Shown in pieces: positions 2,397 to 40,945 of a stretch of DNA of 64,000 nt. Source of the stretch: Corynebacterium amycolatum (lineage in GTDB: Bacteria > Actinomycetota > Actinomycetes > Mycobacteriales > Mycobacteriaceae); the NCBI RefSeq assembly GCF_016889425.1, contig NZ_CP069513.1, positions 372,001 to 436,000 on the forward strand, read 5' to 3'. The notes beneath the pieces are model-generated. The model was given only the letters and a program-made list of their open reading frames with translations. It had not been told where the DNA came from and made no database searches. Made by a program: the position numbers and the translations under genes. How positions within the stretch are numbered: position 1 is the stretch's first letter; each line of letters begins with the position of its first letter.

Positions 2397-3746
2397 ATGT
2401 CCGGTTTCAAATGGTTGTCGCTGGCCACGATTGTCGCCGCGATAGGCAGCTTCGCGGTGCTGATTATCTCGGCCCGCGCACTTCCCAATGCAGTAAATCT
2501 GCAGTTCGTGGCGTTTTGGGGACTGTTCTTCGCGCTCACGGGTGTTCTCGGCGGGCTGATGCAGGAGACCACGCGTGCAATCGGCGCTGCGGAGTCGCGG
2601 GATCGGGAGCACGATCAGGGGCGGGAGCGGGAAGCCTCGGAAGCAGGTCAAACTCTCGGCGCTCGCCCCATCACAGTTTCCCTGGGCGTCGCCGCAGTTA
2701 CTTTCATCACTATGGCAGTGACAGGTCCGCTGTGGGCCCCACTGGTCGTGCAGGATGACGCCGGCACTGCAATTCTGCTCATGGCCTGTGGCCTTGCTCT
2801 GTACTCCATGCAGGCCACCACCTCGGGTCTGCTCAGCGGCCGCCAACTGTGGGGCCCTTACGCTGCACTAATCATGATCGACATTCTCGTGCGCGTGGCG
2901 CTGGCACTCATCGCCTGGTACTTCGGCTGGGGCCTGCTGGCCTGGTTGATTATCACGGTGTTCGGCACTGTCAGTTGGCTTATTCTCGCGCTGTTTTCCT
3001 CGGCAACCCGCTCGGTCATGTTCGCGCGTGCCGACGTCCCGGTGCGCCGCTTCGTCACTCTCATGGTCACGGCCATGGGCGCATCTGGCGCATCTGCTGT
3101 GCTGGTCACAGGTTTTCCGACAATCGTGAAGATTGCCGGCGAAGCGGTCACCACTGGCACCGGGATAGCCGAATCGCTTACCCCGCCGCATGCCAACAAC
3201 TTCACCGCAGCAGTGACCATTGCGGGAATCGCCTACGCCGTAACGCTGACCCGCGCTCCGCTGCTCATGCCCTTGGAGAAGTTCCAAAACGCCATCATTG
3301 TGAGCTTTGTCCGGCATCGCTCCGAGGGTGTACTGGCAGCGCTGGCCAAGCCGTTGGGGGCGCTGGCTGCTTTCGGCACCTTCGGGGCGGGCCTGGCATG
3401 GCTCATCGGCCCGTGGATTATGACTCTCATCCTGGACGATAGCTATCATGTGTCCGGGCCGGTGCTCGCGGCGCTGACGCTCGGTGCGACGTTGACCGCC
3501 ATGTTGATGATTACCGGCTCGGTCACCTTGGCAGTGGAGAAGCACCATATGTATCTGATCGGTTGGTTGGCTGCGACCACAATCGCCGTTGCCATTCTCT
3601 TCCTCCCTGGGCACCTGTCGGTACGCACGGTCGCAGCTATCGCCGTAGGCTCTGCAGTAGGTGTTGTCATTCACCTGCTTGCGCTACGCACACTTTCCCC
3701 ACGTGCTGCCAGGTCAGCCGTATCGGAGGCTTTTGCGGTGGAGTAA
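2397..3746 (+). CDS. Multi-pass membrane protein, MOP/flippase-like
   Basis: 449 residues with about 12 hydrophobic segments spread over the whole length and a short polar loop near residues 65-80. The pattern resembles MOP-superfamily polysaccharide flippases (Wzx/MurJ/MATE fold), but I see no diagnostic motif. It starts 18 bases after the M1 peptidase and is followed by two GT2 glycosyltransferases and a DUF2304 protein. From memory this order matches M. tuberculosis Rv3630-Rv3632, where the first gene is also a polytopic membrane protein. The inferred role is export of a lipid-linked sugar or glycan for the envelope. Family assignment is moderate and substrate unknown. Confidence 0.7.
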   Translation: MSGFKWLSLATIVAAIGSFAVLIISARALPNAVNLQFVAFWGLFFALTGVLGGLMQETTRAIGAAESRDREHDQGREREASEAGQTLGARPITVSLGVAAVTFITMAVTGPLWAPLVVQDDAGTAILLMACGLALYSMQATTSGLLSGRQLWGPYAALIMIDILVRVALALIAWYFGWGLLAWLIITVFGTVSWLILALFSSATRSVMFARADVPVRRFVTLMVTAMGASGASAVLVTGFPTIVKIAGEAVTTGTGIAESLTPPHANNFTAAVTIAGIAYAVTLTRAPLLMPLEKFQNAIIVSFVRHRSEGVLAALAKPLGALAAFGTFGAGLAWLIGPWIMTLILDDSYHVSGPVLAALTLGATLTAMLMITGSVTLAVEKHHMYLIGWLAATTIAVAILFLPGHLSVRTVAAIAVGSAVGVVIHLLALRTLSPRAARSAVSEAFAVE

Positions 3747-25331: not shown

Positions 25332-25530
25332 GGGCTGCAAATGTGAAACTGTGCGAGTTTATAGCACTTTCAGGCCATTTTTCGTGCGATTTGTGCCATA
25401 AACGCGGTCAGTAACCCGGATCATCCCCGTCGCCGCCAGCCATAAACGCGGTCAGTAACTCGCATTGAAGTAAGAAGCAGAAGGTCCCCACCGGTCGACA
25501 CGCTGAGCAGACGCACTTTTGCCTATTACC
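25332..25530 (+). repeat. Intergenic repeat, copy A, followed by an IS1249-like end
   Basis: Contains the block GGGCTGCAAATGTGAAACTG...CACTTTCAGGCC (25332-25376) and two direct motifs CATAAACGCGGTCAGTAAC near 25397 and 25441. Homologous to copy B at 56238 over its whole length. From 25496 it continues with a sequence matching the right end of IS1249 at 38785-38822 (CGACACGC, then TTTTGCCTATTA). The rest of the topA-cspA spacer (24945-25710) shows only short CGGTTCC-type repeats near 25060-25110 and no gene. Confidence 0.8.
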
Positions 25531-31321: not shown

Positions 31322-32479
31322 TTATTCCACCGACTGTTCCCTGCCGACCAGCAATTTCTGCAACGTTTCCCACCCCGGCCCCGGCCCGTCCCGAGCAGTC
31401 CAAACCTCCACCACCTCCGGTGGGTTACCGCGCAGCAGCCCGATCTGCGCCAGCCGGCGAACATCAGCGCGTTCGACTACCAACACCACCTGCACCGCAG
31501 AGACCAACTGCGCATGCAGCCCGGCGCGACTAAGGCCACCGATCAACCCCAAAGCCTCAAAGCGCGCGACGACATCCCCAATCCGGTTGGCGTGAATTGT
31601 CCCTGCCCCACCGCGATGCCCCGTGTTCAACGCAGCCAGCAGATCCACCACTTCGGCGCCACGAATCTCACCGACGACAATGCGGTCGGGACGCATGCGC
31701 AACGCCTGCTTCAGCAACTCCTGCTGCCCAATCGCACCGGCCCCCTCCAAGTTGGCGGCTCTGGTCACCAGCTTCACCACATGGGGATGCTGCGGTTGCA
31801 ACTCCGGAGTGTCCTCGATGCACACAATGCGCTGGTCAGGATTAACTTCTGAGAGCATCGCCGCCAATAGCGTCGTCTTTCCCGCACCCGTGCCTCCGGC
31901 GACAATAAACGACAGCTGTCCCGCCACGATTCCCCGCAACACCGGCAGAATCTCCGGTGGAAACAGCCCGATATCGCACAACTCCGCAAGCCCGCGACGA
32001 GCCGGACGAAGCACTCGCAGGCTAATCTGAGTGCCGGTCGCTGACGGTGGGGAAAGCACCGCATGAACTCGCACACCACAGCCGCCGACACCACCAGGAA
32101 TATGGCCGTCGGCCCAAGGTTGCGCGTCGTCAAGCCTTCGTCCGCACCGCGACGCGAGCCGCACCGCATACGCGCGCACCTCGCCCTCGTCCGCGAAGGA
32201 AATCTCGGCCCGCTCCAGTCCGTTGCCGGCGTCGACCCAGACCTCGCCGGGCGCGGTGACCAGCACATCGCTGACACCCGGGCGGCGCAACAGCGCATCC
32301 AACACGCCCGCGCCCACTGTTTCCTCACGAATCGTGCGCAGAATCTCCAACACCTTCACATCGGAGACAACTCCCGCGGTCTCCGCGCGAATGATGTCGG
32401 CGACCTCGCTATGCGATGCCACCCCAGGCCGCTCCGCAAGCGCCGCCCGCACCGCCGCCAACAGCCTGACATCATCCAT
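31322..32479 (-). CDS. tadA: Tad/CpaF-type secretion ATPase TadA
   Basis: 385 residues. Walker A IVAGGTGAGKTTLLAAML, Asp box VCIEDTPELQPQ, Walker B RIVVGEIRGAEVVDLL and a His box HRGGAGTIHANR are all present, as in VirB11/CpaF ATPases powering type IVb pilus assembly. The ATG at 32479 overlaps the end of ssd by 8 bases, and this coupling is why it is preferred over the longer frame to 32503. Actinobacterial length, lacking the long N-terminus of CpaF. Confidence 0.9.
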   Translation of the reverse strand: MDDVRLLAAVRAALAERPGVASHSEVADIIRAETAGVVSDVKVLEILRTIREETVGAGVLDALLRRPGVSDVLVTAPGEVWVDAGNGLERAEISFADEGEVRAYAVRLASRCGRRLDDAQPWADGHIPGGVGGCGVRVHAVLSPPSATGTQISLRVLRPARRGLAELCDIGLFPPEILPVLRGIVAGQLSFIVAGGTGAGKTTLLAAMLSEVNPDQRIVCIEDTPELQPQHPHVVKLVTRAANLEGAGAIGQQELLKQALRMRPDRIVVGEIRGAEVVDLLAALNTGHRGGAGTIHANRIGDVVARFEALGLIGGLSRAGLHAQLVSAVQVVLVVERADVRRLAQIGLLRGNPPEVVEVWTARDGPGPGWETLQKLLVGREQSVE

Positions 32480-33881
32480 CGCCACCACCGCCGACAAGAG
32501 CAAACATCGCTTCCAATCCCCGCGTCAGCTTGCCGACGGCCCCAGCGAGCCCGCCCACATCTATCTCGTGAGCTACTTTCTTGCAGTACTCAATCTCACC
32601 AGCAATGGGCAGATTGAGCGCGTACTCAACCTCTTCGACACTGATATCGCGGTGCTGCTGGTGCCGAACCGCAAGACTTGGCGTGAATCCTGCCTGTGCA
32701 CAGACGCTGGCCAGGTGTCCACCGGCTGCGATAGCTCGGACAGAGGTGGGCAGGATGATGACGGTGTCATCGGCAAGCGCGCCGATAGTGGTGACGTACT
32801 CCACTTGATTCGGGCAGTCCACGATGACCGTAATTCCGGCATGAATAAGGCAACTAATGGTGCTGGCAATGTGTCGAAGATCGTCGGGTCTGTCGGTTCT
32901 GCCGAGTCTGTCGGCACTGTCGAATTTGGTGGCCGCCGAGGCGTGGTTGTAAGCCGTCTCGGGCGTGCGACTGCGAGTCCACGTCAACACTTTCAGCGCG
33001 GGTGATCGCGGGCAGGATGGCAGTGCTTCGTAGAGTGCCGCCCCGTCGAGACGGCCATCAGCAGCCGAGAAGTCTTGCCACCTCAGTCCCGGTTCCGTTT
33101 CCATCCCGAGCACCAGATCAATACCTCCCGCCAGCGCATCTGCGTCCACCAAGCAGATGGGCCTTTCGCGGGAAAGAACCAATGCACTCGCTGCCGCCGT
33201 AATGGAAGCACCAGCACCGCCGACCGCAGGAACCAACATCAGGCACGTTGCCGTGGAATCGGTTGTAGTTGCTGGCACGTTCGGTGCGGGTTCTGTACCT
33301 GGTGCTGTAATCACGTCTGCGCTCGCAGGTGACGCTGGGGTGTGTTGGTGGTTCAGGAGGCTCGAGCTGTGTTGGAAATCGGAGAGCCTCGGACCATCCG
33401 GACGTACCTCGGCTCGGCCGAGCAGTTCGACAATATCGACGTTATCCGCGGGCAAACTAGCGCTGTAAACAGGAGCTAAAACCTTCGCCACCTGCGTATC
33501 TTCCGCCTCAGTATCACTGCGGACCAGAAAGATTGCTCCCTCACAATGAGGCCGCCCGGCTAATCTTCGGGCTGCCGACGCATCAACGAACACCGCTGGT
33601 GCCCGACGCCACAGGGCCGATGAAACTCCCGCTCCGGTCGATGCGGGCACTGACGCTGTGGCTGATACTGGTGGTGATGCTGGCGACGATGTCAATGCTT
33701 GTGCGGCCACTGGCGCTGCAGCCACAGGTGGCACGGTCTCTTGCACACAGTCACGACCGGTAGCAGCGACTATGAGTGCAACCTCTTCACGCAGCGCTTC
33801 ATCATCGACAGCGTTGACTACTGGATTTGCTGGAGCCTCGGTTCGCTGAGCCATGGACAGTTTCTTGATTGCCATGGCCAT
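32472..33881 (-). CDS. ssd: Septum site-determining protein Ssd / TadZ-CpaE-like
   Basis: About 469 residues. A poorly conserved Ala/Pro/Ser-rich N-terminus is followed by a MinD/ParA-like ATPase fold: VPAVGGAGASITAAASAL is the deviant Walker A, degenerate because both lysines are missing, then ICLVDADALAGG and VIVDCPNQVEYV. M. tuberculosis Ssd (Rv3660c) has the same position upstream of tadA and affects septum formation; CpaE/TadZ proteins localise Tad machinery to the pole. Starts at 33890, 33881, 33875 and 33854 are possible and no clear ribosome site decides. Confidence 0.8.
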   Translation of the reverse strand: MAMAIKKLSMAQRTEAPANPVVNAVDDEALREEVALIVAATGRDCVQETVPPVAAAPVAAQALTSSPASPPVSATASVPASTGAGVSSALWRRAPAVFVDASAARRLAGRPHCEGAIFLVRSDTEAEDTQVAKVLAPVYSASLPADNVDIVELLGRAEVRPDGPRLSDFQHSSSLLNHQHTPASPASADVITAPGTEPAPNVPATTTDSTATCLMLVPAVGGAGASITAAASALVLSRERPICLVDADALAGGIDLVLGMETEPGLRWQDFSAADGRLDGAALYEALPSCPRSPALKVLTWTRSRTPETAYNHASAATKFDSADRLGRTDRPDDLRHIASTISCLIHAGITVIVDCPNQVEYVTTIGALADDTVIILPTSVRAIAAGGHLASVCAQAGFTPSLAVRHQQHRDISVEEVEYALNLPIAGEIEYCKKVAHEIDVGGLAGAVGKLTRGLEAMFALVGGGGDG

Positions 33882-33938
33882 AGCGTGCACTAAAAGGCGG
33901 ATTCAATGATGCTCGCAAGGGGCCAAAACCTCGCTGTC

Positions 33939-34013: not shown

Positions 34014-34036
34014 CCAATGCAAGTTAGTGACTGCGT
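34014..34036 (-). repeat. Left fragment of the intergenic repeat, broken by the island
   Basis: Read on the minus strand it gives AACGCAGTCACTAACTTGCATTG, matching the second direct motif of copy A (25446-25468) at 20 of 23 bases. It stops one or two bases before the IS1249 left end at 34038. The complementary part of a copy in the same orientation is at 39742-39786. Confidence 0.6.
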
Positions 34037-34156
34037 TGGGTTAAGTGACAAAAAATGTGTCTGACTTTCAGGATGTCTACTGATCACCACACATAAAACG
34101 GGCTTGAATAGGGTTCTAGATGTACGGACCGGAGACGTTGATCGATGGGACCGGCA

Positions 34157-35050
34157 TCAGCCGACCATGTGCAGGGCGATTGATTCCTTGACCTGTTCGA
34201 TGAACGCCCGAGACGCGGGGCTCGGATTGAAAGAGCCCCACGCGACGTACTCGGCTCGGCAGGGGCCATCGGCCACGGGAACTGCTCGCAGCGCTGGGTT
34301 AGCCGGCACACATTCGACGGGCAGCAGGCAGACGCCCAACCCACGTTCGACGAGGGCGAGCATGAACTCGGTCGACATCGCCTCGAAGCCCACGCGGCGC
34401 TGAAGGCCTGCGGCAGCGAATGCCCGATCGCCTTGGAGTCTGCCTGGTGACCCGGCCGGGAAGTCGATGAACGTCTCGTCGACCAAGTCAGCCAGGGCCA
34501 GGGTGCCCGTGTGCGCTAGCCGGTGTTGTGACGCCATGACGGCGACGAGACGCCCTCGGGCGATCTCGTGCGCGGTGAGTCCGGACGCTGGGGCGACGTC
34601 GGCGTCCACGCCGAGAAAGGCCACGTCGAGTCTCCCGCTGTCGAGGTCGCGCATGAACTCATTGCTTCCCCCGCCCCGCACGGTGAGGTCCACGTGGGGA
34701 TGGCTGGCGTGGAAGGCCGCGATGATGTCGGGCACGCTGACGGCTGTGACCGTCGGGATGACACCTACCGATAGGCTTCCGCGGACCTGGCCCACGGCCT
34801 CGGCAGCGACCGCCACGGCACGGTCGGCGGCTGCGAGGCTGGCGCGTGCTTCCGTGAGGAAGGCTTCGCCGGCGGCGGTCAGCTCTACCCGACGGGATGA
34901 GCGCACGAACAGTGCCATGCCGAGTTCCTGTTCGAGGGCCTTGATCTGGTGGCTCAGTGCTGATTGCACGACGAAGCATTGTTCTGCTGCTCGCGTGAAG
35001 TTGCGCTCCTCGGCGATCGCCACGACGTACCTGAGCTGTTGGAGTTCCAC
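34157..35050 (-). CDS. LysR-family regulator
   Basis: 297 residues. N-terminal winged HTH: QQLRYVVAIAEERNFTRAAEQ, SALSHQIKALEQELG, LFVRSSRRVELT; then a periplasmic-binding-like effector domain (SLSVGVIPTVTAVSVPDIIAAF). It diverges from the EamA and SDR genes and most likely controls them. The GTG at 35050 is chosen because the family usually begins VELQQLRY and because the inverted repeat at 35069-35090 would otherwise cover the start; ATG 35071 is the alternative. Its stop lies just inside the transposon left terminus. Confidence 0.9.
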   Translation of the reverse strand: MELQQLRYVVAIAEERNFTRAAEQCFVVQSALSHQIKALEQELGMALFVRSSRRVELTAAGEAFLTEARASLAAADRAVAVAAEAVGQVRGSLSVGVIPTVTAVSVPDIIAAFHASHPHVDLTVRGGGSNEFMRDLDSGRLDVAFLGVDADVAPASGLTAHEIARGRLVAVMASQHRLAHTGTLALADLVDETFIDFPAGSPGRLQGDRAFAAAGLQRRVGFEAMSTEFMLALVERGLGVCLLPVECVPANPALRAVPVADGPCRAEYVAWGSFNPSPASRAFIEQVKESIALHMVG

Positions 35051-35068
35051 TAAACCATGATTGTAGGT

Positions 35069-35090
35069 CATTGTTTGGATGAGAACAATG
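35069..35090. promoter_or_regulatory. Inverted repeat, candidate LysR operator
   Basis: Perfect 7-base arms CATTGTT (35069-35075) and AACAATG (35084-35090), 8-base spacer, fitting the T-N11-A rule for LysR sites. It lies in the divergent gap between lysR and the EamA gene. Confidence 0.6.
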
Positions 35091-35129
35091 TGTTGGACTC
35101 ACCGCTGGTGGGCGACTGACAATGGATTG

Positions 35130-36029
35130 GTGAATACTTCTTCCCATGGGGCCCGCAGTTCGTTGCTGTGGACCTGTCTGACGGCGCTGGCCCCCGCTAC
35201 GTGGGGGACAACGTACATCGTGACCACCCACCTCCTCCCAGCCGGACACCCCTTGTTCGCCGCGTTCATGAGGACGCTGCCGGCAGGGATCATCGCGGTG
35301 GGCCTGTCGAGGCAGCTGCCGCGCGGCTCGTGGTGGTGGAAGAGCTTCGTGTTGGGTGGTCTGAACATGGCCGCGTTCTTCCCCCTGCTGTTCTTGTCGG
35401 CGCAGCGTCTTCCGGGCGGAGTCGCGGCCACGCTGGGTGCGGTGCAGCCCATCATCGTTGTCCTGCTGGCCGTGGCTGTCCTCCACGAGCAACTCTCCGG
35501 CTGGCGCCTGGGGTGGGGTGTCCTGGGTGTCGTGGGGGTGGCTCTCGTGGTCCTTGGGCCGAGCGCCGCCCTGGACCCGGTGGGTGTGGCTGCAGGACTC
35601 GGTGGCACAGGGGCCATGGCCACGGGCGTGGTCCTGACCAAGAAGTGGAAGCTCCCCCAAGGTGTCTCGCCCATCGCATTGGCCGGGTGGCAGCTGACGG
35701 CCGCCGGCCTTCTGCTGGCGATCCCGGCGTTGCTGGTGGAGGGGCCACCGGCAGTGATTTCCGGTCGTGGCTGGCTTGGGTACGCCTGGCTCGGCCTGGT
35801 CGGGGCACTGGTCTCTTACAGCCTCTGGTTCACCGGCATCCGACGCCTGCCCGTCACGTCCACAGCCCTCCTGGGACTTCTCTCGCCGTTGGTCGCCGCC
35901 CTGCTCGGCGTCCTGATCGCGCACGAACACCTCGGAGCCGAGCAGTACCTCGGCTTCGCGATCGCCCTGGCCGCCATGGTCTGTGGCCAGCTCCCCGCAC
36001 CCACCCATCGTCGAAAGGACAATTCATGA
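35130..36029 (+). CDS. EamA/DMT-family exporter
   Basis: About 299 residues, ten membrane helices in two EamA repeats (ALAPATWGTTYIVTTHLLP; LGGTGAMATGVVLTKKW). The loop NMAAFFPLLFLSAQRLPGG and ATLGAVQPIIVVLLAVAVLHE are typical. Members export amino acids, antimicrobials or metabolites. The GTG at 35130 (TTG 35127 also possible) begins the conserved part; the frame from 35079 adds a Trp-rich stretch inside the operator. Overlaps the SDR gene by four bases (ATGA). Passenger gene of the transposon. Confidence 0.85.
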   Translation: MNTSSHGARSSLLWTCLTALAPATWGTTYIVTTHLLPAGHPLFAAFMRTLPAGIIAVGLSRQLPRGSWWWKSFVLGGLNMAAFFPLLFLSAQRLPGGVAATLGAVQPIIVVLLAVAVLHEQLSGWRLGWGVLGVVGVALVVLGPSAALDPVGVAAGLGGTGAMATGVVLTKKWKLPQGVSPIALAGWQLTAAGLLLAIPALLVEGPPAVISGRGWLGYAWLGLVGALVSYSLWFTGIRRLPVTSTALLGLLSPLVAALLGVLIAHEHLGAEQYLGFAIALAAMVCGQLPAPTHRRKDNS

Positions 36030-36679
36030 ACATCACGGTTCTCGGAGCCACCGGCATGGCCGGCGCAGCGATCGCGCAGGAGGCCACACGCCGCGGCCAC
36101 CACGTCACTGCCGTATCGCGGAACCCACAGGAGACCAACGACCCGCATACCACCGTCACTCGTCTCGATCTGACAGACCTCGAGGCACCCCTGCAGCCCG
36201 TCCTGAACGACGCAGACGCCGTCGTGCTCGCCGTGCGCATGGCCCCCGGCGACGAAAGCCGTGTGGCTCCGCTGACCAGCCGTGTCCTCGACCACGCCGC
36301 CGTCGCGGGGGTCCGGGTCTTGGTCGTGGGAGGAGCAGCGCCCTTGCGCTCACCTCACGATCGAGAGATGCTCGTCCTGGACGACCCCGCCTTCGTGCCG
36401 ACCCAGTGGCGTGACGTCGCGTCGGCCAGCCTCGACCAGTTCAACGCGTGTACCGAACATCCGAACCAGAACTGGATCTACCTGAGTCCGTCGGCAGTCT
36501 TCGAGCCCGGACAGGGAACCGGCGCCTATCGCCGTAGCGGTGACACGCTCCTCATCAACCACGATGGCACGTCGCGGATCACCCCTGCGGACCTGGCCCT
36601 AGCGGTGCTCGACGAGCTCGAGCAGCCCAGCGCCGTACATCACTTCACCGCCATCGAGCTGGCAAAGGGTCTGGCCTAG
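36026..36679 (+). CDS. NAD(P)-binding Rossmann protein (NmrA-like)
   Basis: 217 residues. ITVLGATGMAGAAIAQEA is the dinucleotide-binding motif, with Arg in VTAVSRNP favouring NADP. It lacks the YxxxK catalytic pair in a canonical place, as in NmrA/atypical SDR proteins; the C-terminal half carries YLSPSAVFEPG and GTSRITPADLALAVLDELE. Preceded by the ribosome site GAAAGGA, coupled to the exporter gene by ATGA. Such EamA-SDR pairs next to a LysR suggest redox detoxification plus export, an inference. Confidence 0.85.
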   Translation: MNITVLGATGMAGAAIAQEATRRGHHVTAVSRNPQETNDPHTTVTRLDLTDLEAPLQPVLNDADAVVLAVRMAPGDESRVAPLTSRVLDHAAVAGVRVLVVGGAAPLRSPHDREMLVLDDPAFVPTQWRDVASASLDQFNACTEHPNQNWIYLSPSAVFEPGQGTGAYRRSGDTLLINHDGTSRITPADLALAVLDELEQPSAVHHFTAIELAKGLA

Positions 36680-36717
36680 GGCCAGCGGTCCACAGAGGAA
36701 TCCACGCTAACAACCGT

Positions 36718-36743
36718 GAGGGGGTCGAGCTATCGGCCCCCTC
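36718..36743 (+). terminator. Terminator of the LysR-linked operon
   Basis: Arms GAGGGGG (36718-36724) and CCCCCTC (36737-36743) with an inner 12-base loop, followed by CGTCTATT. Placed 38 bases after the SDR stop and before the transposase. Confidence 0.65.
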
Positions 36744-36765
36744 CGTCTATTCCAAGGGGACGCTC

Positions 36766-37752
36766 TTGCTCCACGCCAACGCAGCACTGACCCCGCGCCA
36801 CCGCTTGATCGTCGGCCAGCTCGTGGTCGACCAGGGCTGGCCGATCAGCGAGGTCGCCGCCCGGTTCCAGGTTTCCTGGCCCACTGTGAAGCGCTGGGCC
36901 GACCGCTATCGCGCCGGCCAGTCGATGCAGGACCGCTCGTCACGGCCGCATCACTCGCCGAACAAGACCAACGCGAAGACGACGAAGCGCTGCATCCAGC
37001 TCCGTCTCCGTCTTCGAGAAGGACCCGTGCAGCTCGCTTGCCGGCTGGGGATCGCTCCGTCGACGGTTCACCGGATCCTCGTCGACGCGCACCTGAACCG
37101 GCTTTCGCATGTCGACCGGGCAACCGGAGAGCTGGTCCGCCGCTACGAGCACGACCACCCCGGGGCGATGCTGCACGTCGACGTGAAGAAGCTCGGCAAC
37201 ATCCCCGACGGCGGCGGCTGGCGCTACGTCGGCCGGCAGCAGGGCGAGAAGAACCGCGCCGCCACCCCGGGCAAGCCCAAGAACAAGTACAGCGACCCGT
37301 TGATGGGCAAGGCCTACGTCCACACCGTCATCGACGACCATTCCCGCGTCGCCTACGCCGAGATCCACGACGACGAAACCGCCCTCACCGCCACCGCGGT
37401 CCTCGTTCGGGCCGTCGAGTGGTTCAACGCACGCGGGGTGACCGTTGAGCGGGTCCTGTCCGACAACGGCGGCGCGTACCGCTCGCACCTGTGGCGAGAC
37501 ACCTGCCACGAGCTCGGCATCCGGCACAAGCGCACCAGGCCCTATCGGCCGCAGACCAACGGGAAGATCGAACGCTTCCACCGCACCCTGGCCGACGGCT
37601 GGGCCTACGCCCGCTGCTACACCTCCGAGGCCGAGCGCCGCGGTGAGCTCGACGGCTGGCTTCACTACTACAACCACCACCGCCCCCACACAGCCTGCGA
37701 GAACCAGCCACCCTTCTCACGATTGACCAACGTCCCCGGTCAGTACATCTAG
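36766..37752 (+). CDS. IS481-family transposase
   Basis: 328 residues, intact. N-terminal HTH (LTPRHRLIVGQLVVDQGWPISEVAARFQ), a second HTH near 95, and an rve integrase core with DDE residues: Asp in MLHVDVKKLG, Asp in RVLSDNGGAYRS and Glu in TNGKIERFHRTLADG. GWAYAR and HYYNHHRPHTA are IS481 signatures. The stop codon TAG lies within the right inverted terminus. With an intact reading frame and DDE set it could still be active. Confidence 0.93.
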   Translation: MLHANAALTPRHRLIVGQLVVDQGWPISEVAARFQVSWPTVKRWADRYRAGQSMQDRSSRPHHSPNKTNAKTTKRCIQLRLRLREGPVQLACRLGIAPSTVHRILVDAHLNRLSHVDRATGELVRRYEHDHPGAMLHVDVKKLGNIPDGGGWRYVGRQQGEKNRAATPGKPKNKYSDPLMGKAYVHTVIDDHSRVAYAEIHDDETALTATAVLVRAVEWFNARGVTVERVLSDNGGAYRSHLWRDTCHELGIRHKRTRPYRPQTNGKIERFHRTLADGWAYARCYTSEAERRGELDGWLHYYNHHRPHTACENQPPFSRLTNVPGQYI

Positions 37753-37832
37753 ACCTTATTCAAGCCCGTTTCTTGTTCAATCCACCGGAATGGCTCCTGC
37801 ATGTGGTAGCAGGGTCTTGGTTGTCTTTCCGG

Positions 37833-38772
37833 GTGACTCATAACAGACCCCGATGCCCCGTATGCGCTGGGCAAATGAAGGAAAACGGCACCACAACCAA
37901 AAGGACAACCAGGTGGCGGTGTAAAACCCTGACTGCGGAACCTCCACCACACGCCACCGCCCCGATCAGACCCACACCCGGGATTTCAAAGCGTTTCACG
38001 CCTACGTCACCGGCACTGCTTCTTTAACCGACGTGGCCAACACCTTGAACGTCTCCCGGCGCACGCTCGACCGCCGGTTCACCTCGTTGTGGCTTATCGA
38101 TGTGCCCAATACCCCAGACCCCAACCGCATCTACGACCAAATCTTCATCGACGGCACCTACACCGACGCCGGCAAAGCCATCTACGCCCTGGCTTTGAAA
38201 CTGACTAAGATCACCACCTTGGACCAAGCACGCGACTGGACACTACGCCTGCACGACTTCGGAGTGGTCTACAAACGGTTCCTCAACGAAAAAACACCGC
38301 TGCCAAAACAACATCGCACACTCAATAAACAGTGGGAATGGCCCCACCTGCGAGTCCGTAAGGCATACCACTCACTGCTACACCTATCACGCAACAACTG
38401 GCTGTTTACCTACCTCCAACCCCCACCAGAAGCACTCGAACCAAAGCGCTGGACATCAACAACAAACAGTCTGGAAGGCGGCATCAACGCCGGGCTCAAA
38501 CGCATCGCTGATGCCCACCGGGGCAGATCCGGGAAAGCCAACGCAGAATGCTCGAATGGTACCTGCACTCGAAAACGCAACTGCCTGACGCCCCATTAAA
38601 GATCGCCAGGCAGTGCAATTACGGACAAGATCAACTCGCCAAAATTCCAGACCTTGTCCCAGAAGACCACAACACAGCCGACCAAGAAACAGGACGACCA
38701 GCCTTCTACGACAACGCTATCCCAACCGAATACCAACACAACATAGGAATCCGGAAAGGACCGATGCAATAA
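37833..38772 (+). pseudogene. IS1249 transposase, broken by frameshifts and a deletion
   Basis: The zinc-ribbon start (PRCPVCAGQMKENGTTTK, then RWRCKT) begins at GTG 37833. A 5-base insert (CTGAC, 37929-37933) shifts the frame; reading resumes as DCGTSTTRHRPDQTHTRDFKA. After FIDGTYT (about 38160) the sequence jumps to DAGKAIYALALKLTK; from memory of IS1249 roughly 60-70 residues are missing there, probably with a catalytic residue. A one-base loss near 38535 shifts the frame again, and the end MLEWYLHSKTQ through MQ is read in the 38548-38772 frame. Not functional. Confidence 0.8.
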
Positions 38773-38828
38773 AAAGGGCCCCAGCGACACGCCGAGCGGA
38801 CACACTTTTTGCCTATTAACCCGGAAAA

Positions 38829-38853
38829 CCCCACATGAGAGATTCATGCGGGG
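38829..38853 (-). terminator. Terminator of the 38.9-39.7 kb gene pair
   Basis: Arms CCCCACATGA (38829-38838) and TCATGCGGGG (38844-38853) pair with one mismatch around GAGAT; on the minus strand TTTTCC follows. It stands 26 bases after the membrane protein stop. Confidence 0.65.
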
Positions 38854-38878
38854 TTGAGAGGGGGGCTAGAAGAATAAA

Positions 38879-39271
38879 CTACTTTCGAAAAACTCTGGTT
38901 ACTGCTCCAATTACCAACAGGAGTAGCAAAACGACAGCAATAAAAGCGGCTACCGGAGGACCGAAAGCCAAGTCTAAGTTAATTCCAAAGACTTCACCAT
39001 TAATCGAATAGGCAACTATAGCAATGGCGGCCAAAATCAAGGCTAAGACGTTAACAGCTACAGCGAATTTTGTGTACAACGTCCTTCCCCCTGACCGGTC
39101 GGAGAAGAACAAAAGCAGCCACACCACTTGAATAGCTAACGCTAAAGCGTAAGCGAGTATGATTCCGGTGCCCCGTTCTGGAGATGGAATTAGCGCAACG
39201 CAGGCAGCAGATCCGAGCAGTGCAAATGGGTAACCGACTTGGTATATGAGTTTTTTATTCGAATGCTCCAT
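38879..39271 (-). CDS. Small four-helix membrane protein, unrecognised
   Basis: 130 residues with four hydrophobic helices (about 11-29, 35-56, 68-88, 100-127) and short polar loops; no motif that I recognise. The base composition is clearly more AT-rich than the surrounding chromosome, indicating foreign origin. It starts 9 bases after the phospholipase-like gene and shares its terminator, so the two form an operon. It could be an immunity or accessory protein for that enzyme, but nothing in the sequence proves it. Confidence 0.65.
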   Translation of the reverse strand: MEHSNKKLIYQVGYPFALLGSAACVALIPSPERGTGIILAYALALAIQVVWLLLFFSDRSGGRTLYTKFAVAVNVLALILAAIAIVAYSINGEVFGINLDLAFGPPVAAFIAVVLLLLLVIGAVTRVFRK

Positions 39272-39280
39272 ACTTAAGCC

Positions 39281-39727
39281 TTAGTTAAAGATTGGCGGCT
39301 TGGGGTCTCCGCTCTTTCCACCGTTTTGTTCAACGGCAAAGACGTATCCATCCGCAGTACGTCGACAATCGAGCGCGGAGTCAGGATCGGTAGCGTACTT
39401 CTCGTTGCAGTTGGCATACAAGTTGCTACGAAACTCCTCGTCACGGTTCATTTTGCCCTCACTTTTTACGGTAGGTACGGCATTTGGATTAGCGTCATAG
39501 CACATGTCGTGGCGGGCGCAGGGGCCTCTGAAATCCACACCAGGTTGGTCAGGAGATGAGGTACACCAGTCATGTCGCCCCTTGTACAGTTTTGCATCAT
39601 CTCCAGGCTGCATATGATCCCCTTGGTGATCATAGACATATTCATCGGGCACAGTAGCAGGTCCGCCGCTAACTTCGCCTTCTTCAAGGCCGTTGAGCTG
39701 TACGGCGAATGCAGGTGATGCATTCAC
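39281..39727 (-). CDS. Prokaryotic phospholipase A2-like protein, 5' end truncated
   Basis: 148 residues. The core DWCTSSPDQPGVDFRGPCARHDMCYD contains the CxRHDxCYD catalytic His-Asp pair of bacterial phospholipases A2, with further cysteines for disulfides (NCNEKYA, LDCRRTADGY). The GTG-started N-terminus NASPAFAVQ looks like the end of a signal peptide with its hydrophobic core lost; an in-frame TAG stands four codons upstream. The repeat fragment begins 15 bases beyond the start. AT-rich, coupled to the membrane protein. Without the signal peptide it may not be secreted, so it may be a pseudogene. Confidence 0.7.
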   Translation of the reverse strand: MNASPAFAVQLNGLEEGEVSGGPATVPDEYVYDHQGDHMQPGDDAKLYKGRHDWCTSSPDQPGVDFRGPCARHDMCYDANPNAVPTVKSEGKMNRDEEFRSNLYANCNEKYATDPDSALDCRRTADGYVFAVEQNGGKSGDPKPPIFN

Positions 39728-39741
39728 CGCCTGAACCTACC

Positions 39742-39786
39742 GGCCTGAAAGTGTCATAAACTCGCACAGTTTCACATTTGCAGCCC
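39742..39786 (-). repeat. Right fragment of the broken intergenic repeat
   Basis: Minus-strand reading GGGCTGCAAATGTGAAACTG...GACACTTTCAGGCC is almost identical to the first block of copies A (25332) and B (56238). The two CATAAACGC motifs that should follow are absent here; one is found at 34014-34036 across the island. Confidence 0.75.
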
Positions 39787-39830
39787 GCACTTTTACTACA
39801 TGCCCCTCAACATTGGGCCAAAAAAGGGGC

Positions 39831-39868
39831 GACGCCCCGCGCCGGGGGGGGGATTGGCGCGAGGCGTC
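39831..39868. repeat. Hairpin with G9-ATT loop
   Basis: Arms 39831-39843 (GACGCCCCGCGCC) and 39856-39868 (GGCGCGAGGCGTC) pair at 12 of 13 positions; the loop is nine G followed by ATT. Could act as a terminator/attenuator. The G-run is a slippage-prone tract. Confidence 0.7.
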
Positions 39869-39873
39869 TTTAA

Positions 39874-39900
39874 CCGGCTCGGGGGGGGGGATTGAGCCGG
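39874..39900. repeat. Second hairpin with G10-ATT loop
   Basis: Perfect arms CCGGCTC (39874-39880) and GAGCCGG (39894-39900); the loop is ten G followed by ATT, the same design as the hairpin just before it but with an unrelated stem. Both stand upstream of the HAD gene. Confidence 0.7.
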
Positions 39901-40009
39901 GGCGGCCTCGCAGTCTGTTTCTAAAAAGAACTAGAAGGGGCCAGCCACGTCCAAGTATTACATATCCCGAGGAATCTGCAAATACCTTTTAAAGGATTTA
40001 ATACCCAAT

Positions 40010-40945
40010 ATGTTCGATGTCACGTCTCCCCGAGCCCGACATCCATGGGTAAGCTCAGAGTCTATGAACACCGGCGAGAACAAGGCTTCAACAACGCCGC
40101 AGCCGCACGTTTCTACGGACACACGCATCACGGAAGATGCCCCCGCCACCGCTAACTCTCGCGTCGCTGCGTTCTTTGACCTGGATAAAACCATTATTGC
40201 CAAGAGCTCGGCATATGCGTTCAACAAGCAATTCCTCGAGCGCGGCATCATTTCGCCGACGGACATGCTGCAAATGGCACTCAGTCACGCCCTGTACATG
40301 TCACAGGGACACGATGAGGCACAAATGGAGGCCACGCGCGAGCAGTTTTCCGCCCTTATCGCTGGTCACAGCGCCAGAGAACTGCGCCAGGTCGCGATCG
40401 AAACCCTAGAGCAGAACATCACGCCGTACATCTACGCCGAGGCCTTGGAGCTCATTCGTGAACACCGCGCACGGGGGCATCAGGTGTTCATTATCTCGGC
40501 ATCGGCTCGGCAGATTGTTGAGCCCATTGCGCAGGCACTCGGTGTCTACAACGTGGTGGCCACCGAGCTGGAGGTCCGCGATGGGCTCTTCACGGGCGAA
40601 ACGGAGTTCTTCTGCCGAGGCGAAAACAAGGCTGTGCAGATGCGTCGGATAGCGGAAAAGCGCCAGTTCAACCTGGCCGTATGCTTCGCATACTCGGATT
40701 CCATCACTGATGAGCCCATGCTGGCTGCAGTCGGCCATCCCGTTGTGGTCAATCCCGATCGCGCTCTGCGCAAGATTGCGGCGGAGCGTGAGTGGCCTGT
40801 GCGCCAATTCCGGAATCCCGTCCCGCTGTTTCGCGCGCCGTCGAAACGCAATGCTGCAATTCTTGCCGGCGTCACACTGGCGCTTGGCGCGGGTGCGACG
40901 CTGTTGGCACTGCGCAAAAATGATGACGCCCCAACGGCCGACTAA
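40010..40945 (+). CDS. HAD-IB family phosphatase, membrane-tethered
   Basis: 311 residues (or 293 from ATG 40064). HAD motif I FFDLDKTII (Asp nucleophile), motif II FIISASARQI, motif III/IV CRGENKAVQMRRI and YSDSITDEPML are complete. The cap and length match SerB-like actinobacterial proteins (Rv3661 by position). One C-terminal membrane helix (AAILAGVTLALGAGATLLAL) is followed by a charged tail. Phosphatase on a small phospho-substrate, identity unknown. Start uncertain because no clear ribosome site precedes either ATG. Confidence 0.86.
   Translation: MFDVTSPRARHPWVSSESMNTGENKASTTPQPHVSTDTRITEDAPATANSRVAAFFDLDKTIIAKSSAYAFNKQFLERGIISPTDMLQMALSHALYMSQGHDEAQMEATREQFSALIAGHSARELRQVAIETLEQNITPYIYAEALELIREHRARGHQVFIISASARQIVEPIAQALGVYNVVATELEVRDGLFTGETEFFCRGENKAVQMRRIAEKRQFNLAVCFAYSDSITDEPMLAAVGHPVVVNPDRALRKIAAEREWPVRQFRNPVPLFRAPSKRNAAILAGVTLALGAGATLLALRKNDDAPTAD

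Follow-up and report, generated by a model that had tools for sequence, protein, structure and literature searches.

Why does one spacer of a bacterial chromosome, and not another, collect foreign DNA? This question is raised by a locus of Corynebacterium amycolatum. The stretch of DNA analysed, hereafter the window, comprises 64,000 nucleotides (G000:C1:372001-436000, from a chromosome of 2.47 Mb) and contains, between an ssd-like gene and a gene for a HAD-family hydrolase (hereafter HAD gene), a block of mobile DNA with a piece of an intergenic repeat at either end. An earlier reading made from the letters alone (the sequence-only reading) took positions 34038-39741 as a single acquired island. 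The genomes compared here are G000, which is the window's own, G005 (SK46), G082, G235 (labelled C. vitaeruminis 1285_CVIT) and G194. The HAD protein is 97% identical to that of C. amycolatum SK46 (L048) and 95% identical to that of the genome labelled C. vitaeruminis 1285_CVIT (L050), and the DNA of SK46 equals that of G005 over all 12,001 bases compared. We consider it probable that the block is a stack of mobile DNA that was built in several separate events inside one repeat copy, the repeat likely being the preferred target of an insertion sequence (IS) of the IS30 family.

The split repeat and the site without the block

The site is defined by the following features of the window.

25333..25467, plus strand: repeat copy A, uninterrupted (L018), 84% over 134 positions
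32472..33890, minus strand: ssd-like gene, left anchor, TIGR03815 (septum site-determining protein Ssd) 146.3 bits, cut-off 154.45
34014..34037: tail-side piece of the split copy of the repeat, in reverse orientation; the same copy runs unbroken to the IS30 element in G082
39714..39741: IS30-end scar of 28 bp, 100% identical to bases 1-28 of the element in G082 (E 9.2e-7)
39742..39785, minus strand: head end of the split repeat copy, 98% over 44 bp to copy B
39827..39901, minus strand: putative 6C small RNA, RF01066 44.5 bits, gathering 47, E 0.0014
40010..40945, plus strand: HAD-family hydrolase, right anchor, PF12710 137 bits
56238..56372, plus strand: repeat copy B, uninterrupted (L009), query of the similarity search of the own genome

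The left anchor is named ssd-like on the basis of its position and of a TIGR03815 score that lies just below the cut-off. With copy B as query the repeat of ~135 bp was found at 30 places in its own genome (E<=0.001), the best other copy showing 92% identity over 135 bp, hence the family is real rather than a product of chance. Matches span at least 81 bp at 28 of the 30 places, the split copy contributing 44 bp and one further place 34 bp. The core approximates, by reading, GGGCTGCAAATGTGAAACTGTGCGAGTTTATGACACTTTCAGGCCATTTTTCGGGCCATTTTTGACATAAACGCAGTCAGTAACTCGCATTGG and is often followed by a second tail unit. When 201 genomes of the genus were searched, with up to four places per genome scored, six matched: G000, G005, G082 and G235 strongly, G126 and G194 weakly. 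As a side observation, 22 of the 30 repeats of G000 share one direction relative to the contig start, which was assumed to be the origin (10/15 in the first half and 12/15 in the second, uncorrected for gene direction).

The two pieces that flank the block belong, as the sequence-only reading had proposed, to one repeat copy: they are the two ends of the copy found between ssd and HAD in G082. Copies A and B are indeed intact. In G082 ssd is followed by the repeat tail and core, then by an IS30-family element of 1,432 bp, the repeat head and a conserved block in front of HAD; neither the phospholipase A2 (PLA2) gene nor an IS1249-type or IS481-type element was found in this spacer. The copy was not cleanly split, however, since ~70 bp of its middle (71 bp counting a 3-bp duplication) is missing in the window relative to G082. 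In G194, a more distant genome, ssd and the conserved block are likewise present, and 87 bp separate the matched stretches. These two arrangements support ssd-HAD as the older order, with ssd-repeat-HAD within this group, which is in line with the empty site that had been predicted. An allele lacking the whole block, whose absence would have spoken against an acquired block, thus exists in G082.

The G-tract hairpins in front of HAD probably correspond to a 6C small RNA encoded on the minus strand. Loci L109 (52.8) and L110 (47.7) exceed the RF01066 gathering score of 47; L108, L111 and L049 were not among the matches at that score. According to PMC8628891, the B11/6C RNA of M. tuberculosis is encoded on the minus strand, with rv3660c and rv3661 as its neighbours, which agrees with the gene order Rv3660c/Rv3661 given in the sequence-only reading. 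The putative RNA described here shares neighbourhood and strand with the mycobacterial one; the window copy scores just under gathering and mobile DNA has accumulated downstream of it. The lengths of the loop G-tracts (39844-39890 in the window) vary: 9/10 in the window, 9/8 in SK46, 10/9 in G082, 8/7 in G235 and 9/9 in both G194 and C. lactis. Either sequencing slips or real variation could account for this.

The repeat as the likely target of an IS30-family element

The IS30-type transposase at L108:5334-6740 scores 234 bits with NF033563 (cut-off 80) and the G082 element has, by reading, terminal inverted repeats. The 28-bp scar is the only match of this element in G000 and ends where the repeat head starts. 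A search with the element gave 20 matches in four genomes, 18 of which have a readable end (L159 is internal and L167 shows 10 end bases only). These 18 loci provide 24 readable flanks and all 24 contain the arm GT[TA]TATGNC, a pattern broadened by one letter in order to take in L163 (GTATATG). The strict arm GTTTATGNC is present in 23 of the 24 flanks, versus 83 of 20,000 random 70-mers of the window. The distance from the last base of the arm to the element is 10 nt in seven flanks, 11 nt in seven, 21 nt in two and 22 nt in eight. This fixed spacing, in which every readable flank has a GTTTATGNC-type arm at a distance of either 10/11 or 21/22 nt, is why we regard the repeat as the likely target of this IS30-family element.

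IS30-family elements make a short target duplication of 2-3 bp, and a 3-bp duplication was found at four of the six G082 copies for which both sides are available. Two of these six sites, L165 and L170, are occupied by uninterrupted repeats in G000 (L032 and L027, respectively), and a third corresponds to the split copy of the window; for the remaining three no site orthologous on both flanks was found among the 30 repeat loci of G000.

A less specific explanation would be that IS30 has no preference for the repeat and simply persists where no gene is hit, in spacers close to terminators, which is also where the repeats are found. Terminator-like hairpins are indeed denser near repeats: one lies within 200 bp of 29 of the 30 copies, and the 53 hairpins within that distance amount to 4.4 per kb, as compared with 1.7 per kb at 500-1500 bp, although the detector is permissive and hairpins at the repeat's own edges may count. 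Survival in spacers does not, however, predict an insertion point that is fixed within 1-2 bases of an arm in 24 of 24 flanks. Moreover, by reading, 14 of the 18 loci lie in the repeat itself and the other four (L160, L169, L172 and L173) in palindromes that have only the arms in common. We therefore regard this explanation as very improbable.

The preference resembles that of the IS30 of E. coli, which belongs to the same family according to NCBIfam NF033563 and for which near-palindromic hot-spot targets as well as the production of cointegrates and deletions are described in PMC9333248. The target differs in that it is here a multicopy chromosomal repeat with its relatives, recognised as a target from sequence alone. 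A second parallel is formed by the insertion sequences specific for repetitive extragenic palindromic (REP) elements. The section of PMC1525189 drawn on here lists IS1397, IS621, ISKpn1, ISPpu9, ISPpu10, ISPsy8 and ISRm22, which fall into the families IS3, IS110, IS4, IS256 and IS5; IS30 is not among the families in that section. Like these, every readable copy of the IS30-family element has entered a palindromic repeat that is dispersed over intergenic regions, and has done so at a fixed point. The repeat described here is longer (~92-135 bp) and present in ~30 copies, whereas REP proper is short and usually exceeds 100 copies per genome.

The layers of the block

Between the repeat pieces the window contains the following.

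34038..38822, plus strand: IS1249-family element interrupted into two parts (34038-34120 and 37748-38822), with 249 bp of the G235 version missing and without a duplication of 8 bp
34121..37747, plus strand: IS481-family element of 3,627 bp that carries three passenger genes; ends TGTAC...GTACA, flanked by the duplicated TCTAGA (34115-34120 and 37748-37753)
34157..35071, minus strand: passenger, LysR-type regulator, PF03466 and PF00126
35079..36029, plus strand: passenger, EamA-type transporter, PF00892
36026..36679, plus strand: passenger, NAD(P)H-binding protein, PF13460
36766..37752, plus strand: IS481-family transposase, NF033577 346.8 bits, cut-off 224; stop codon within the duplicated TCTAGA
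38879..39271, minus strand: small putative membrane protein, 130 aa, no Pfam/NCBIfam match, four homologues found
39281..39727, minus strand: prokaryotic phospholipase A2 frame, 5'-truncated, PF09056 45.6 bits, cut-off 29.4

Together with the IS30 scar these make at least four layers with separate junctions: remnants of three different insertion sequences plus two genes that probably derive from a fourth mobile element, all in one repeat copy.

The IS481-family element lies inside the IS1249-family element, whose G235 counterpart lacks the insert and joins 34120 directly to 37748. Its lysR-eamA-NAD(P)H-binding cargo recurs at ~92% in two other genomes of the genus, G100 (L155) and G072 (L156), between the same ends and without the transposase, flanked by the duplications GCTAGC and GCTAGT. 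The cargo at L155 and L156 is a mobile insertion cassette that carries a putative transporter, and its recurrence at these loci suggests that the cargo moves as a unit. Among 401 family genomes searched, most other listed matches consist of the transposase alone or of distantly similar passenger genes, and the 20 plasmid matches listed cover only the transposase end of the query. The target NCTAGN is known for the IS481 family, as stated in PMC2516522 and PMC6794481. TnRErm46 (PMC6794481) and ISLxc2 (PMC2516522) share the TGT...ACA ends, the NCTAGN duplication, a stop codon inside the duplication and the presence of passenger genes, and cargo held between the same ends in the absence of a transposase, as in the two relatives, recalls the mobile insertion cassettes presented in PMC3129680. 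Compared with the cargo transposons of the family in these accounts, the cargo differs in being lysR-eamA-NAD(P)H-binding, with no resistance gene. Separately, L157 (G154) has the same IS481-type ends and transposase, but what they enclose is other DNA, with an open frame of 185 aa on the minus strand (2845-3402). Its two flanking 6-mers are unlike each other, as if recombined.

The IS1249-type end GGGTTAAG... starts at 34038, directly after the repeat tail, and the same junction is present in G235. The label IS1249 given by the sequence-only reading is correct for the family, the G235 copy scoring 400.6 bits with the IS1249-family model NF033544 (cut-off 300; the window fragment, at 174.2, stays below it). 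Identity with IS1249 itself was rejected: the protein is ~60% identical to that of the Corynebacterium plasmid IS1249 and no megablast match was obtained in plasmids. From IS1249 of Tn5432 the window copy differs further in being interrupted and deleted, and there is no ermX in the block. Relative to G235 it has lost a stretch of 249 bp bounded by direct repeats of 13 bp, and a second break of its frame follows further along. Comparator copies are flanked by 8-bp duplications, namely GAATCCGC at L146 in G000 and ACCATAAA at L162/L180 in G082; none was found at the window copy, the inner side of which would then have been altered during or after arrival. At L162 with L180 both kinds of element share a single repeat copy, the IS30-family one lying in the core and the IS1249-family one in the tail unit. 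IS1249-type ends lie near eight of the 30 repeat copies of G000 (11/120 tests, versus 3/660 distal control tests), hence they are enriched there without being a general component of the repeat. That the repeat is an IS1249-derived miniature element was for this reason rejected as a general description; the accessible part of the published literature on miniature elements in Corynebacterium held nothing to the point.

The PLA2 frame of the window is homologous to the longer frame of G235 only as far as base 39721, its first codons being derived from the IS30 end. The G235 frame has 175 residues with, by reading, a signal-peptide-like start, which is absent in the window. The PLA2 protein has seven homologues in the protein search, the nearest cluster (99% identical, 175 aa) standing for 30 sequences. 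PLA2 matches occur in 37 of 242 genomes of the genus, exceeding 90% identity in G000, G235 and G005 only. No match between the PLA2/membrane-protein DNA and phages was found, and the part of the published literature seen on PLA2 with C. amycolatum offered nothing to the point.

SK46 has the counterpart of 38823-39620, 99.0% identical over 798 bp, at this same site together with the repeat pieces and without an IS body, its PLA2 being truncated deeper, at 39620. Since SK46 has the gene pair in this form, the pair need not be cargo of the window's IS elements. Exactly at the place of the window's IS1249-family element SK46 has a 74-bp near-perfect palindrome with IS1249-type tips (L048:8758-8831), the right tip of which carries the variant of the G235 element, not that of the window's; as a possible multicopy element it was found nowhere else at E<=0.001 in the four genomes searched. 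The sequence-only reading had itself pointed out that relatives with PLA2 and the repeat pieces but no IS would speak against a single island, and SK46 is largely such a relative, apart from the palindrome with the same tips in place of the IS.

A version of the single island would be a composite one, in which IS elements captured the PLA2 pair and entered the repeat as a unit. This would fit the repeat pieces flanking the entire block and the G235 pair, which also adjoins an IS1249-family element. It conflicts with SK46, except in the case of a later loss of the IS body there, and there is no duplication around the block, ~70 bp of the repeat being gone instead. Furthermore, the IS481 and IS1249 parts each have junctions of their own, and the scar at 39714-39741 comes from a third element. 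Given SK46 and the lack of duplications, the composite reading was set aside as improbable, and with it the single acquired island.

In G235 a 3,010-bp contig contains the membrane-protein gene and PLA2, which lie between an IS1249-type element and a polymerase fragment, the latter followed by an IS30 fragment. The polymerase fragment comprises 295 residues of the C-terminus of a family-A DNA polymerase, whose closest 12 relatives outside G235 and its kin (11 non-self loci, among the matches listed) are frames of ~1,384-1,493 aa. One of these loci, L132, taken from a viral-contig collection, encodes downstream of the polymerase a relaxase, with 64.4 bits against a cut-off of 24.6, as well as a MobC-like protein (21.7, below the cut-off of 23.2). 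Of the seven polymerase loci viewed L132 is the one tested with profiles; L136 resembles it by reading. A phage origin of the fragment was considered and rejected: 2,543 phage records match, all at less than 60% identity, and the nearest long relatives include L132 with its relaxase.

Proposed assembly of the block

A sequence of events that accommodates these layers would begin with an IS30-family element docking in the repeat copy; such an element occupies this copy in G082, and the window retains 28 bp of an end of it. IS1249-family elements can enter the repeat's tail unit too, as at the other G082 locus with its 8-bp duplication, and the IS481-family element with its three passengers entered the IS1249-family element of the window at TCTAGA. 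A piece of a mobilisable element, consisting of the polymerase C-terminus, PLA2 and the membrane protein, may have arrived beside IS30, probably through an IS30-driven fusion of two molecules or through recombination between IS copies, and would have taken the place of the repeat's middle and of most of IS30. The cargo would then have been trimmed lineage by lineage through deletions at short direct repeats, in the window removing the start of PLA2. Such later deletions are suggested by the eight bases in common at the PLA2/IS30 junction of the window and the overlap of ~11-14 bases between polymerase and IS30 in G235.

The same arrangement might have arisen by ordinary homologous recombination, if donor and recipient both carried IS1249-family and IS30-family elements and two crossovers swapped the DNA between them. 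L162 of G082, with both elements in one repeat copy, has the configuration that this demands, and an IS1249-family element lacking its inner duplication fits a swap. On the other hand, the searches yielded no donor that carries the cargo between the two IS elements, and the short overlap of polymerase and IS30 is more like illegitimate joining. Such a swap is therefore possible but doubtful.

Several observations weigh against the stepwise assembly at an IS30 target. By exact match L162 shows no duplication, and L168 shows four matching bases instead of three. The one-sided IS30 ends in draft genomes (G235) may in some cases be the two ends of one insertion. At ssd-HAD the G082 insertion point lies one base off the scar of the window, therefore a shared insertion is not proven and two hits at one hot spot are possible. 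With regard to the cargo, PLA2 was confirmed in none of the viral contigs, and in plasmids just two distant proteins (34-36% identity) were found. Across the three carrier pairs the cargo is 99.0-99.4% identical, HAD 94.1-96.3% and ssd 96.4-98.6%; for window and G235, however, ssd (98.6%) is nearly as similar as the cargo (99.1%), hence that pair does not show a more recent transfer of the cargo. Finally, the G235 order ssd-IS1249-PLA2-IS30-HAD was pieced together from three contigs broken in IS sequence. An overlap in IS1249-type sequence connects contigs C5 and C12; since this IS1249 half is present in C6 as well, the PLA2 contig could instead adjoin C6.

More speculatively, the repeat family could be a set of chromosomal docking sites: the IS30 transposase would recognise the GTTTATGNC...GNCATAAAC palindrome, and IS30 fusions would deliver mobilisable pieces to fixed places free of genes, among them the spacer beside 6C. 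For this Corynebacterium group the sites would amount to a replaceable cargo bay. We consider this a tentative idea.

The locus provides a near nucleotide-exact case of an IS30-family element using a dispersed host repeat as its target. For REP-type targeting PMC1525189, in the section mentioned above, lists insertion sequences of other families. Targeting by IS30 would explain why this spacer, not another, collects foreign DNA. The PLA2-like gene of the window should be treated with caution, as a 5'-truncated remnant; together with its counterparts it would illustrate how an enzyme gene arrives with mobile DNA and then decays differently in sister species.

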